DNA of 64,000 bases from Aggregatimonas sangjinii (GTDB taxonomy: Bacteria; Bacteroidota; Bacteroidia; Flavobacteriales; Flavobacteriaceae), in contig NZ_CP040710.1 in NCBI RefSeq assembly GCF_005943945.1, positions 2,367,001-2,431,000 of the forward strand, written 5' to 3'. How positions within the stretch are numbered: position 1 is the first letter of the stretch; the number at the start of each line of letters is the position of its first letter. The notes beneath the pieces were generated by a model. It was not told where the DNA came from. It worked only from the letters and a program-made list of their open reading frames with translations, and did no database searches. Made by a program: the position numbers and the translations under genes. Shown here one piece after another: positions 5,248 through 55,616 of the stretch.

Positions 5248-5256
5248 ATAAACCGC

Positions 5257-5342
5257 CTCGAGACACCAGAACCAAGAACGCTGCCGGCCAGCGGTCTAGA
5301 CCTATGGTCTTGAATCTTGGTTCTACTCTCTTGAATCTATGT
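5257..5342. repeat. Heptamer-arm mini-element (copy A)
   Basis: Two inverted arrays of degenerate 7-nt units face each other across a hairpin. Right arm, 5308-5342: TCTTGAA, TCTTGGT, TCTACTC, TCTTGAA, TCTATGT. Left arm, reverse complement of 5257-5277: TCTTGGT, TCTGGTG, TCTCGAG. AGAACCAAGA (5268-5277) is a perfect inverted repeat of TCTTGGTTCT (5315-5324). The core 5279-5293 is a 5-bp stem with a 5-nt loop (CGCTG/CAGCG). Bases 5293-5340 match 18016-18063 without gaps at 38 of 48 positions, including the last codons of the four-helix-bundle gene. It is read as a gene-less derivative of that element. A terminator role for the upstream gene is possible but there is no T-run. Confidence 0.75.
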
Positions 5343-5445
5343 AGTATTTAAATAACTTGATGCTATACTAGAGACAGAGCCTCGAGATATGCTATTGAAT
5401 AAATTAAGTGTCAAAACCATTCGCTAGCCAATAAAACCAAGTCAT

Positions 5446-16322: not shown

Positions 16323-16323
16323 A

Positions 16324-16455
16324 AGCCCCCTACCCCCCAAAAGGTGGGACACGAATTAGATGTATACGACAGTCGGTCTTGAAAAAGAATTTTAGAATTA
16401 ATAACTAAAAACCCTATTGACCCCTAATAGGAATTTCCCCTTCGGGGGTTAGGGG
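16324..16455. repeat. REP-like inverted pair between fadN and fadA
   Basis: Left copy begins GCCCCCTACCCCCCAAAA just after the fadN stop. The right copy, read as reverse complement, is CCCCTAACCCCCGAAGGGGA, so the two are inverted relatives about 80 bases apart. Inside lies a small CCTATT/AATAGG hairpin (16413-16431). G/C-rich CCCCCTAACCCCC-type repeats are scattered in many flavobacterial genomes, and paired inverted copies resemble BIME or MITE units. It ends 6 bases before the thiolase ATG, so it forms most of that gene's leader. Confidence 0.75.
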
Positions 16456-16461
16456 ACTAAC

Positions 16462-17652
16462 ATGAAAACAGCCTATATAGTTAAAGGATACAGAACAGCC
16501 GTCGGAAAAGCCCCTAAAGGAGTTTTCCGTTTTAAGCGAACTGATGAATTGGCCGCCGAAACCATTGAATACATGATGAAGGAGGTGCCTGATTTCGACA
16601 AGAAGCGTATCGATGACGTCATTGTTGGAAACGCCATGCCGGAGGGTGCTCAAGGCCTTAACATGGCTCGATTGATTTCGTTGATGGGTCTTGATATTGT
16701 TGACGTACCTGGGGTAACAGTGAATCGTTTTTGTGCATCGGGTCTCGAAACTATTGGGGTCGCTGCAGCAAAAATACAAGCAGGAATGGCCGATTGTATC
16801 ATCGCGGGTGGTGCCGAAAGTATGAGTGCCGTGCCAATGACCGGTAACAAGCCGGAATTGAATTACGATGTAGCTAAGCAAGGTCACGAGGACTACTACT
16901 GGGGTATGGGCAATACTGCTGAAGCCGTGGCAAACGAATACAAGGTTTCACGAGAAGACCAAGACGAGTTCGCCTACCATTCCCATATGAAGGCATTGAA
17001 GGCGCAGGCAGAAGACCGTTTTCAGAGTCAGATCGTTCCAATCGAAGTAGAAGAAACCTATTTGGATGCGAATGGCAAGAAAGCGCATAAAAAATATACC
17101 GTAACGAAAGATGAAGGCCCTAGAAAAGGAACATCAATCGAAGTCTTGAACAAATTACGCCCCGTGTTCGCCGCAGGGGGCAGCGTTACTGCAGGTAATT
17201 CTTCACAAATGAGTGACGGAGCGGCCTTCGTTTTGATCATGAGTGAGGATATGGTGAAGGAATTAAACTTAGAACCTATTGCACGCTTAGTGAATTATGC
17301 AGCTGCGGGAGTTCCACCAAGAATTATGGGTATCGGTCCCGTTGCGGCAATTCCAAAGGCGTTGAAACAAGCTGGATTAAAACAGGATGATATCGAGTTG
17401 ATCGAATTGAACGAAGCTTTTGCCTCCCAATCTTTGGCTGTTATGCGCGAATTAAAACTCAACCAGGATATCGTTAACGTAAACGGCGGCGCAATTGCCT
17501 TGGGGCATCCATTGGGCTGTACCGGAGCAAAATTGTCAGTGCAATTGTTCGACGAAATGAGAAAAAGAGACATGAAAGGAAAATACGGAATGGTGACCAT
17601 GTGCGTAGGCACTGGACAAGGTGCTGCGGGGGTTTTTGAGTTCCTTAACTAG
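16462..17652 (+). CDS. fadA: Acetyl-CoA acyltransferase (3-ketoacyl-CoA thiolase)
   Basis: A 396-residue thiolase that cleaves 3-ketoacyl-CoA with CoA to give acetyl-CoA, the last step of beta-oxidation. The acyl-accepting Cys91 lies in N-R-F-C-A-S-G. The C-terminal motifs A-L-G-H-P-L-G-C-T-G and T-M-C-V-G-T-G-Q-G-A-A supply the catalytic His and the second Cys. Length is normal for the family. The final Asn codon and TAG stop lie inside the left heptamer arm of the downstream four-helix element, so insertion there left the protein's end intact or rewrote only its last residues. Confidence 0.96.
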   Translation: MKTAYIVKGYRTAVGKAPKGVFRFKRTDELAAETIEYMMKEVPDFDKKRIDDVIVGNAMPEGAQGLNMARLISLMGLDIVDVPGVTVNRFCASGLETIGVAAAKIQAGMADCIIAGGAESMSAVPMTGNKPELNYDVAKQGHEDYYWGMGNTAEAVANEYKVSREDQDEFAYHSHMKALKAQAEDRFQSQIVPIEVEETYLDANGKKAHKKYTVTKDEGPRKGTSIEVLNKLRPVFAAGGSVTAGNSSQMSDGAAFVLIMSEDMVKELNLEPIARLVNYAAAGVPPRIMGIGPVAAIPKALKQAGLKQDDIELIELNEAFASQSLAVMRELKLNQDIVNVNGGAIALGHPLGCTGAKLSVQLFDEMRKRDMKGKYGMVTMCVGTGQGAAGVFEFLN

Positions 17653-18065
17653 AGCCAAGAATCAAGATAAATGGGTAGGCATAATTTCAAAAAACTTAAG
17701 ATTTGGGATGAAGGAATGTCGATTGTAGACGATACTTATGATTTGGTGGAGACATTTCCCAAACTTGAAAGATTTAATTTAATCTCTCAATTATTGAGAT
17801 GTTCTGTTTCCATTCCATCGAATATATCCGAGGGAACAAGCAAATCAACTGACAAACACTTCAATAAGTATTTAGAGGATAGTTTAGGTTCGGCATTTGA
17901 GTGGGAAACACAATTAATCGTTTCATATAGGCGGAAATATATCAGTGAAGAGAAGTTTCAATATTTAGAGAATAAAATACAACAATTACAAAAAATGATT
18001 TCAGGCTTTCAAAACGGACTAGACCTTTAGTCTTGATTCTTGATTCCTGTTTCTTAAATCTATTA
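17647..18065. mobile_element. Heptamer-flanked four-helix-bundle element (copy B)
   Basis: The unit has a left arm (reverse complement of 17647-17667: TCTTGAT, TCTTGGC, TCTAGTT), the four-helix-bundle gene, and a right arm at 18031-18065 (TCTTGAT, TCTTGAT, TCCTGTT, TCTTAAA, TCTATTA). AAGAATCAAGA on the left is the exact reverse complement of TCTTGATTCTT on the right. The right end, including the last five codons of the gene, is shared with the gene-less copy A. It interrupts an operon whose three enzymes normally adjoin. No transposase, target duplication or known insertion-sequence end is visible, so mobility is inferred from the two copies. Confidence 0.6.
17671..18030 (+). CDS. Four-helix-bundle protein (23S rRNA intervening-sequence type)
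   Basis: A 119-residue protein of the S23/IVP-like family of four-helix bundles, recognised by K-L-x-I-W early on, then L-R-x-S-V-S-I-P-S-N-I-S-E-G and a Gly-Ser-rich L-E-D-S-L-G-S-A-F-E-W-E-T-Q. Relatives are encoded by intervening sequences in 23S rRNA and as the Avd accessory protein of diversity-generating retroelements, but neither a reverse transcriptase nor rRNA is near. The family forms basic pentamers that can bind nucleic acid. The gene looks more AT-rich than its neighbours and splits the fad operon. Its biological role is unknown. Confidence 0.9.
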   Translation: MGRHNFKKLKIWDEGMSIVDDTYDLVETFPKLERFNLISQLLRCSVSIPSNISEGTSKSTDKHFNKYLEDSLGSAFEWETQLIVSYRRKYISEEKFQYLENKIQQLQKMISGFQNGLDL

Positions 18066-55200: not shown

Positions 55201-55483
55201 TTCGGTAATGGCATTGTATATCGGAAAAGAGGACAAGCGCCAAGGCATTACCCGCAATCCGGAAACCAATGTTATGCAACGTATCGGGAATGCCTCCGGT
55301 TACGTGCGATCAAGACCCAACGGACTGACCAAAACGGAAAGGGATCTCATGAAGTATGCCGAAAACGATTTGGAAAGCGCCCTAGAAAAGACCAATACCT
55401 TCTTCACCGATAAATGGAAAGCGTATCGGGAAGAGATAGAGAAGTTGGACGTATCACCCTTTAAGGAAATCAAAACATTTTGA
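52235..55483 (+). CDS. Sortilin/VPS10-like WD40/YVTN glycosyl-hydrolase-annotated protein
   Basis: A 1,082-residue secreted protein. It starts at TTG 52235: the signal M-K-K-Q-L-L-S-V ... L-F-A-Q lies directly after it and no in-frame ATG serves as well. Residues 20 to about 760 are a long beta propeller of Asp-box/YVTN-type blades (S-x-D-G-G-x-x-W-x repeats), usually annotated as sortilin-like or glycosyl-hydrolase BNR. An acidic Glu/Lys/Asp-rich linker comes near 790-830, then a beta domain and a C-terminal coiled coil (about 925-1070). No glycosidase active site is seen. Function unknown; a surface binding or scaffold role is plausible. It precedes the S9 peptidase. Confidence 0.88.
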   Translation: MKKQLLSVLMLLASLTLFAQEFKMDLVQDLKPRNIGPGGMSGRVTAIDAIHNNPDIMYVGTASGGLWKSTSGGIKWEPLFEKELTASIGALAIQQSNPSVIWVGTGEGNPRNSLNGGFGVYKSLDGGKSWMAMGLEKTRHIHRIKIDPTDPNTVYVGAIGSPWGEHPERGVYKTTDGGVTWEKILFVNNKTGVADLVMDPTNPNKLIAAMWEHKRDPWFFKSGGEGSGLYMTHDGGKNWKKLTEEDGLPKGDLGRMGIAIAPGKPNIVYALIEAKKNALYKSEDGGFTWKKINDKSDIGNRPFYYSEIYVDPQNENRVYSVFTFINVSEDGGKNFKQLMNAYGRDVTNGVHPDHHAFWIHPKNGQFILNGNDGGFNISKDGGKSWRFVGNIPVAQFYHINVDNEYPYNVYGGLQDNGSWRGPAYVWKAQGIRNSYWQEISFGDGFDVVPDPDDSRYGYTMSQQGYVQRYDHITGNNYIIRPTPPDATTKLRFNWNAAIGQDPFDNTTVYFGSQFVHKSTDKGLTWEIISPDLTTNDPEKQKQSESGGLSMDATGAENHTTLLVVEPSPVEQNMLWTGSDDGRVHYTQDGGTTWIDVTANIKGLPAGSWIPQIKASTKNKGEALLIANDYRRFNYTPYAYRTKNYGKTWERIVDGDDVQSYTLSIVEDPENPNLVFLGTDDGLYISFDAAANWQKWTEGFPTVSTKDLVIHPREHDLVIGTFGRAVWVLDDIRPLRALASDKSILNRDIKLFAPPIAYQAAYQQPTGTRFGGDALYNAENRKGGAMLTYYLKEGKKKAAGKEEDKDEDGSEEETIASEANKVDEGDSKELTGVQKKDSVQFDFYDGERLIRTLKYKTPEKAGFHRIYWDMDEKGPDRPSRKISKDKNERGGRDVTPGTYRVKVSFGDQTDETTIMVKSDPRLSVSEAGIAEIYATAEKLQQMTQTAADAVEQLAESKNVADKYAKELKELDKKKYKDQIKASGTIAKQIDSVMALYIGKEDKRQGITRNPETNVMQRIGNASGYVRSRPNGLTKTERDLMKYAENDLESALEKTNTFFTDKWKAYREEIEKLDVSPFKEIKTF

Positions 55484-55490
55484 CTTAAAT

Positions 55491-55585
55491 AGGGCTGGAT
55501 GCCTGAAGCTCGATGCGCGATACCAACTATCGCACGCCAAGCACCGAGCACCGAGCACCGAGCACCGAGCACCGAGCACCGAGCA
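55491..55585. repeat. Heptamer-arm element, GCACCGA type (copy C)
   Basis: Right arm: more than six perfect AGCACCG units from 55540 to 55585. Left arm, reverse complement of 55491-55516: GCATCGA, GCTTCAG, GCATCCA, GCCCT, the same 7-nt register in opposite direction. The core 55517-55533 is a perfect 6-bp stem with a 5-nt loop (GCGATA/TATCGC). The plan is the same as copy A although the heptamer differs. It fills the gap between the sortilin-like gene and the S9 peptidase gene. Confidence 0.78.
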
Positions 55586-55616
55586 ATAAAAACATCAATC
55601 ACTAAATACAAGTATC

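Follow-up and report, generated by a model that had tools for sequence, protein, structure and literature searches.

IVP-type genes between inverted heptamer arms at bacterial operon junctions resemble ORF-bearing 23S rRNA intervening sequences

Two lines of earlier work bear on the element described here: the ORF-bearing intervening sequences (IVSs) of 23S rRNA, and short dispersed repeats, the idea of the cyanobacterial STRR among them. The Coxiella burnetii 23S IVS, as described in the available parts of PMC4990558, is 428 nt long, has been called selfish, and carries an S23p ORF of the protein family studied here between complementary terminal arms that form a 28-bp stem, with tandem GACAGAT heptamers upstream of the ORF. 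It is reported to be cut by RNase III, its heptamer units vary in copy number between strains, and its authors describe signs of decay in the S23p reading frame. Avd of the diversity-generating retroelements (DGRs) is a related four-helix-bundle protein (PMC10053308, available portion). The heptamer TAACTGA was published as mostly intergenic direct repeats of Beggiatoaceae, Cyanobacteria and Bacteroidetes, possibly horizontally transmitted by no evident mechanism, and MacGregor (2015) raised the possibility that what moves is a protein binding the repeats; we found no mention of S23 or 23S rRNA in the accessible sections of that paper (PMC4679880). GGGAATC of Xanthomonas was studied as a G-quadruplex repeat and generally not found with mobile elements. 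Rehm and colleagues reported 70 and 75 convergent inverted pairs of it, and three Calothrix heptanucleotides are mentioned in the accessible text (PMC4692102).

The element studied here lies in a 64,000-nt stretch of the Aggregatimonas sangjinii genome (the window, 2367001-2431000). At 17671-18030 on the forward strand, a 119-aa IVP/S23 four-helix-bundle gene occupies the gap between the fadA stop codon (17650-17652) and the start of the acyl-CoA dehydrogenase gene (18074), splitting the two genes as an earlier note on this DNA had read it, and outside the 23S rRNA genes. The protein exceeded the cut-offs of PF05635 (E 1.8e-34; 118.6 bits v 33.8) and of TIGR02436, the 23S rRNA IVP model (108.6 bits v 24), and its nearest solved structure by sequence is PDB 2gsc (XCC0516; E 5.8e-16). 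The names fadN, fadA and fadE are taken from the earlier sequence-only reading; the fadA protein was over the cut-off of NCBIfam TIGR01930 (acetyl-CoA C-acyltransferase), and the fadN protein had a 3-hydroxyacyl-CoA dehydrogenase/crotonase FadB-type NCBIfam match below cut-off.

The gene is framed by heptamer arms in opposite orientation. The left arm, AGCCAAGAATCAAGATAA (17653-17670, forward strand), begins immediately 3' of the fadA stop codon and pairs with the right arm (18031-18065, forward strand), a run of TCTTGAT heptamers of which the first units are exact and the later ones degenerate. As the earlier note had stated, AAGAATCAAGA on the left and TCTTGATTCTT on the right are exact reverse complements. 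CCAAGAATCAAGA just left of the IVP start and TCTTGATTCTTGATTCC directly right of the IVP stop also form an inverted pair, and an inverted-repeat search returned 28-nt arms at 17647-17674 and 18024-18051 that are 75% complementary. The further claim of five right-arm units in register stands for the first units and was generous for the last, since these are degenerate: TRF reported a period-7 array of 3.6 copies at 18031-18055, with 83% matches. The IVP gene is the only ORF of at least 90 aa within 17653-18065, where there is no transposase gene, although a MITE would need none. Both the MFE and the centroid RNA folds pair the arms, and the whole window element folded no better than its shuffles (z -0.79); the fold calculations back arm pairing, not unusual stability.

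The window element has an S23/IVP-family ORF between complementary ends, as does a 23S rRNA IVS, and tandem 7-nt units in intergenic DNA, as does the TAACTGA/GGGAATC heptamer class. Unlike the 23S IVS, it sits in an mRNA operon junction and belongs to a type with several copies per genome, mostly bearing different heptamers, and a role for RNase III would be by analogy. It resembles MITE and REP sequences in its short intergenic hairpins and gene-less derivatives, but it has neither a transposase nor a RAYT, and its arms vary from copy to copy. By eye, no target-site duplication was seen at the junctions of ten genomes, where the near-empty gaps have diverged.

With up to two mismatches, the arm motif occurred seven times in the window against 6.1 expected. 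Exact copies numbered four in the whole genome (v none for the reversed control), two of them (L009 and L011) in what was judged by eye to be coding sequence. Alone, the window motif is thus weak, and it is the family-wide pattern of periodic, inverted flanks that lifts it above chance. TCTTGNN did not survive as the signature of the element: the heptamer sequence differs between elements, which have in common only the period, the inversion and the self-match.

We compared 94 loci from the genus and family, a non-random set made up of the best-scoring matches (at most 30 a search) and every third of the further listed matches; 11 were dropped for a short ORF or flank, leaving 83. The genomes are presumed members of Flavobacteriaceae or, in a later set, Xanthomonadaceae. 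Identity at lag 7 was 0.361 upstream and 0.343 downstream of the IVP genes, compared with 0.243 and 0.257 in controls 650-800 nt away, and the excess was repeated at lags 14, 21 and 28. With ties shared, lag 7 was the best of lags 4-12 in 55.6 upstream and 50.2 downstream flanks out of 83 (6.5 and 9.8 in controls). The contrast held against intergenic controls: lag-7 identity in the 60-nt flanks was 0.449, whereas 30 gaps of the window gave 0.287 and 21 further gaps from the same loci gave 0.317. Upstream and downstream flanks were also complementary to one another, with a mean score of 26.5 for own pairs, 19.1 in direct orientation, 16.4 across copies and 15.8 after shuffling (Wilcoxon P = 7e-8 and 9e-14 for the own-arm excess). 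Complementarity exceeded the 99th percentile of shuffles at 40 of the 83 loci (7 of 83 in direct orientation), so that about half of the IVP loci fail this threshold.

Two clearly periodic arms were present in 44 of 159 elements from all sets. The two heptamers agreed at 6-7 of 7 positions in 19 of these 44, against 2.9% in cross-element comparisons and 4 of 44 without reverse complementing. Among 17 elements of a single fadN-fadA clade, own arms paired better than exchanged arms (28 of 10000 permutations reached the own value), which shows the two arms changing in concert. Where IVPs with 60% identity or more lie at different sites, they had a common heptamer (at least 6 of 7 positions) in 15 of 31 pairs, six of which are non-independent pairs among four cyanobacterial loci, and 2.5-7.7% of pairs did so in lower identity bands; "different site" was assigned by neighbour similarity and may miss same-site pairs. 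The overall Mantel r was low, at 0.10, a value reached by 3 of 2000 permutations. The earlier note had treated arms and gene as one unit, and by these counts they tend to travel together. In the window's family, 76 of the 83 IVP genes have both neighbours on the same strand.

We consider it an even proposition that these loci are IVP elements in the following sense: one protein gene between inverted arrays of a copy-private heptamer, lying in sense at the stop-start gap of an operon, an mRNA-borne relative of the ORF-bearing 23S rRNA IVS. The earlier note knew of no S23/IVP-type protein as cargo of a heptamer-flanked element; heptamers next to an S23 ORF are not wholly new, given the tandem GACAGAT of the Coxiella 23S IVS (PMC4990558). 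In a search of open-access papers, we found nothing else that joins IVP/S23 genes with heptamer arms.

The genome of A. sangjinii has eight PF05635 matches, seven over cut-off. On reading, most of their flanks are 7-nt periodic with an inverted partner and differ in sequence: the heptamers are GAGCATC (L004), GAAGCNN (L005) and GTACCTC (L007), and a fourth locus (L006) has a weak pattern. Arms beside other IVP genes were likewise found in relatives, usually with another heptamer.

Gene-less forms occur alongside. The second locus with element ends and no gene, reported in the earlier note, is real. At 5272-5340 on the forward strand, a left arm CCAAGAAC (5272-5279) is followed by an element right end (5292-5340) that matches 18015-18063 at 39 of 49 ungapped positions, taking in the last ORF codons (score 48; none of 30 shuffled queries scored above 28 in the window). 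The hairpin of this solo (5255-5350) had a z of -3.4, with none of 200 shuffles as good, and an 84-nt query (5262-5345) matched itself alone among ten genomes of the genus. Another site in the same genome (L012) carries the right end with the last ORF codons at 30 of 35 positions. A gene-less array of 6.6 AGCACCG units by TRF (55540-55585, within 55480-55590, forward strand) belongs to the heptamer class of the L004 arms. The pattern GAGCAYCGAGCAYC gave 36 hits in seven arrays of the genome and none for the reversed control; IVP gene L004 adjoins one of these seven GAGCAYC arrays, and the other six are without an IVP gene. Elsewhere in the genome (3380987-3381112; L337-L347), about 18 tandem GAGCACC units stand with no inverted partner and no IVP gene nearby, and a repeated CACTTCGACTG-CTCAGTGTGAC-like motif adjoins GAGCACC arrays at two places (L322 and L337; within 1240-1860). 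The fadN-fadA gap of the window holds a gene-less 139-nt insert (16323-16461, forward strand) of uncertain class, not clearly heptameric, with a hairpin z of -2.26 (3 of 200 shuffles as good). Its ends are C-rich and G-rich and complementary (CCCCCTACCCCCC ... GGGGGTTAGGGG).

IVP genes with arms were also found in other phyla. Of 59 genomes drawn from the phylum to which a Calothrix belongs, 28 had PF05635 matches, in 24 of them over cut-off. From the cyanobacterial draw, 27 of 29 loci were usable and two were dropped (another set of 30 lost eight). Lag-7 identity in the 27 was 0.385 and 0.411, v 0.276 and 0.254 in controls, and arm complementarity was 44.3 for own arms, 23.7 in direct orientation and 15.8 across copies, with 17 of 27 loci scoring above 24. 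Orientation showed a weak bias in the 46 of 59 cyanobacterial loci that were usable (+>+ 18, +>- 8, ->- 7, ->+ 3, ten unassigned). In genomes chosen for their TAACTGA arrays, mirrored arms were plain: ACAGGGA in Fischerella, a TAACTGA-class heptamer in Microcystis, CCTGTTG in Okeania and CTCTCAA in a Verrucomicrobium, with plain arms in Anammoxibacter as well. A Parabeggiatoa locus (L248) is one of several with a one-sided array and no mirrored partner. Low-scoring IVP homologues, of which L282, L283 and L285 are examples, had no visible arms and may lack them. Phage records gave no IVP match; plasmids gave 20 records, mostly cyanobacterial.

Both published heptamers recur as arms of IVP genes. 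TAACTGA forms the arms of a Microcystis IVP gene (L238) and surrounds that of a Nostocales MAG (L192). In 24 genomes chosen because of their TAACTGA arrays, PF05635 was present in 22, over cut-off in 21. As intact IVP elements, the arrays themselves are ruled out, with an IVP gene in one of 110 loci listed. Of 64 listed arrays with 2 kb on both sides, 12 had inverted TAACTGA units nearby and 3 had them in more distant stretches of the same length, a test that supersedes one in which the distant control was twice the near length (15 of 94 v 8 of 94 listed arrays); most listed arrays had no inverted unit. In the Xanthomonas-like family, 20 of 59 genomes had PF05635. At the accB-accC junction, IVP genes have arms of the GGGAATC/GATTCCC type, either on both sides, with 1-2 units on the left (L302, L303, L305 and L310), or on the right (L306). 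Other IVP genes of this family precede carB, nrdR, dnaJ and lysS; their heptamers are different ones, or no heptamer can be seen. Neighbour-orientation counts for this set (->+ 9, +>+ 6, ->- 5, +>- 2; n = 22) were set aside, as the script was distrusted in GC-rich DNA; by eye, three of the 22 loci (L297, L300 and L316) look antisense to their neighbours. GGGAATC triples gave eight hits in one of 369 gammaproteobacterial genomes (G576), and the reversed control also hit one of 369 (G364, six hits). G576 has a gene-less hairpin of inverted GGGAATC arrays, and its IVP match is partial and runs on into accC. The six control hits in G364 are another perfect heptamer array.

The solitary arrays invite a different order of events, in which heptamer arrays arise first, everywhere, by replication slippage, and IVP genes later insert into them or acquire arms when slippage and inverted gene conversion act afterwards, the arms having no role in mobility. 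That most arrays stand alone (109 of 110 listed TAACTGA loci, six of seven GAGCAYC arrays), that they reach about 18 units with no inverted partner, and that unit copy number differs among Coxiella strains (PMC4990558, available parts) all agree with such an origin. Slippage alone, however, does not give two inverted arrays of one private heptamer around one gene family, the arms co-vary within one site clade, and in two solos the match to the element end runs past the heptamers into the last ORF codons. We regard an arrays-first origin as unlikely. The converse, that IVP elements are a source of arrays, rests on shared heptamers, the two solos and co-occurrence rather than on direct descent.

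The presence of the gene differs between relatives. Among ten genomes of the genus, the present one included, the fadA-fadE gap holds an IVP gene in three (421-444 nt), a gene-less insert of 84-85 nt in five and 14-15 nt only in two. Syntenic relatives lacking the insertion exist, a point that the earlier note had asked about, the gene is not fixed at this junction, and arms occur at other IVP genes; neither outcome that the note had named as counting against it was seen. The fadN-fadA gap measures 3-23 nt in four genomes, holds an IVP gene in five (430-445 nt) and the 139-nt insert in A. sangjinii; the gaps of G008 and G002 were counted with the start codon and are 3 nt shorter than tallied. 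In G002 and G004, both fad gaps are near-empty and the genome has no PF05635 match. Three of the gene-less fadA-fadE inserts folded no better than shuffles (z -0.48, -0.54 and -0.15). Mobility, which the earlier note inferred, is put forward here from the comparison between genomes.

Ratios of dN/dS were 0.08-0.20 across seven IVP pairs, not all independent, and about 0.08 for the window IVP and its G001 counterpart, at a dS near saturation; on these estimates, the IVP protein is under purifying selection. In a tree of 83 IVPs (119 columns), where 16 of 80 inner branches have good support, most clustering follows the insertion site, with 20 at fadN-fadA and nine in a metH cluster. The tree still needs at least four changes between fadN-fadA and other sites, a minimum and undirected count. 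The metH cluster forms a second hotspot (L089, L063, L094, L100, L108, L114, L056, L102 and L068); the L089 IVP lies directly before the second part of a metH (methionine synthase) that looks split into two genes. The fadN-fadA IVP of G008 was closest, of ten compared, to a fadA-fadE IVP of another genus (71.8%), and 38-39% identical to IVPs of its own site and genus. IVP dS was below fadA dS in three of six pairs (0.42 v 1.09, 0.83 v 1.39, and 0.78 v saturated), a difference that movement of elements after divergence of the hosts would produce; in the other three IVP dS was saturated, once against a finite fadA dS of 2.28. With one of its seven inner branches well supported, the ten-genome fadA tree gives no order for gains and losses.

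Purifying selection, sense orientation (76 of 83) and clades bound to one site, such as fadN-fadA, would also suit a host operon regulator whose RNA operator is the arms, with nothing mobile and absence meaning loss. We think this improbable. The neighbours have nothing in common (accC, carB, nrdR, dnaJ, lysS, metH, hemW, obgE and fad; apart from fad, these are best NCBIfam matches of fragments, several below full-length cut-off, and the upstream names accB, glyA, dnaK, prfB and ruvC were read by eye), close relatives have gaps of 3-23 and 14-15 nt, gene-less inserts exist, and the G008 IVP is nearer to that of another site and genus than to its own.

Very improbable, finally, is a retroelement in which the IVP, as an Avd-like partner, lets a reverse transcriptase in trans copy element RNA into new sites: sense orientation, the rRNA relatives and weak bAvd and Avd matches speak for it, but those matches are below cut-off (bAvd 22.2 bits v 40; DivGenRetAVD 24.1 v 80), PF05635 occurs in 28 of 33 genomes with RVT_1 and 67 of 87 without it (120 family genomes counted by hand, where RVT_1 may miss divergent enzymes; Fisher P = 0.45), and G015, G014 and G033, with 16, 11 and 8 IVP matches, have no RVT_1. 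We rejected a reverse transcriptase in trans for lack of association over these 120 genomes, and the element does not need a resident one. Unlike Avd, the window IVP has no reverse transcriptase near it, the sole RVT_1 match of the genome (569948-570487) lying outside the window. In one family genome (G117), reverse-transcriptase matches number 19, spread over many places; several score identically, and they resemble group II introns that have multiplied.

We return to the IVP element as an mRNA-borne relative of the 23S IVS. By analogy with Coxiella, the arms would zip in the transcript, and RNase III could cut the stem so formed; the IVP message would be released, and the ORFs on either side could still be translated. 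Such excision without harm to neighbours would explain why operon junctions and rRNA loops tolerate the element. The IVP protein may bind its own stem or hairpin and so help the element to persist or spread. Most spread would be site-specific and would use recombination in the conserved genes next to the element; jumps, driven by host enzymes that act on the hairpin, would be rare. Solo hairpins and tandem heptamer arrays would be the later products of deletion and slippage. A life at the RNA level is favoured by sense orientation, by siting between stop and start codons, by complementary arms that co-vary, and by what has been published on RNase III and the Coxiella IVS. We found no catalyst within the element. 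No catalytic fold is known in the IVP protein family, so that recombination or enzymes of the host would have to bring about any movement.

The anatomy, the copy-specific complementary arms and their co-variation, and the family-wide sense orientation emerge from comparison, as do presence and absence, gene-less derivatives, selection on the protein, and site-bound clades with an occasional change of site. Judged on these sequence comparisons, the element type is real and widespread; its nearest known counterpart is the 23S IVS with an ORF, from which it differs by its mRNA operon junctions and private heptamer arms. The interpretation of the earlier note is supported. More tentatively, and at somewhat short of even chances, such elements may be pan-bacterial minimal mobile elements, each a gene for a non-enzymatic protein with private, complementary heptamer arms as its recognition code, at home in mRNA operon junctions and rRNA loops, whose decay and slippage gave many dispersed heptamers of cyanobacteria, Beggiatoaceae, Xanthomonas and Bacteroidetes.

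Heptamer repeats are noted in many bacterial genomes, and a tie between some of them and a single conserved protein family offers an origin that can be tested, together with a candidate protein. The 23S rRNA IVS would become one of the many sites occupied by a broader element, and a likely context emerges for many genes annotated as "four helix bundle protein". If true, an element that has no enzyme and whose arms change together would represent an unusual route to mobility.
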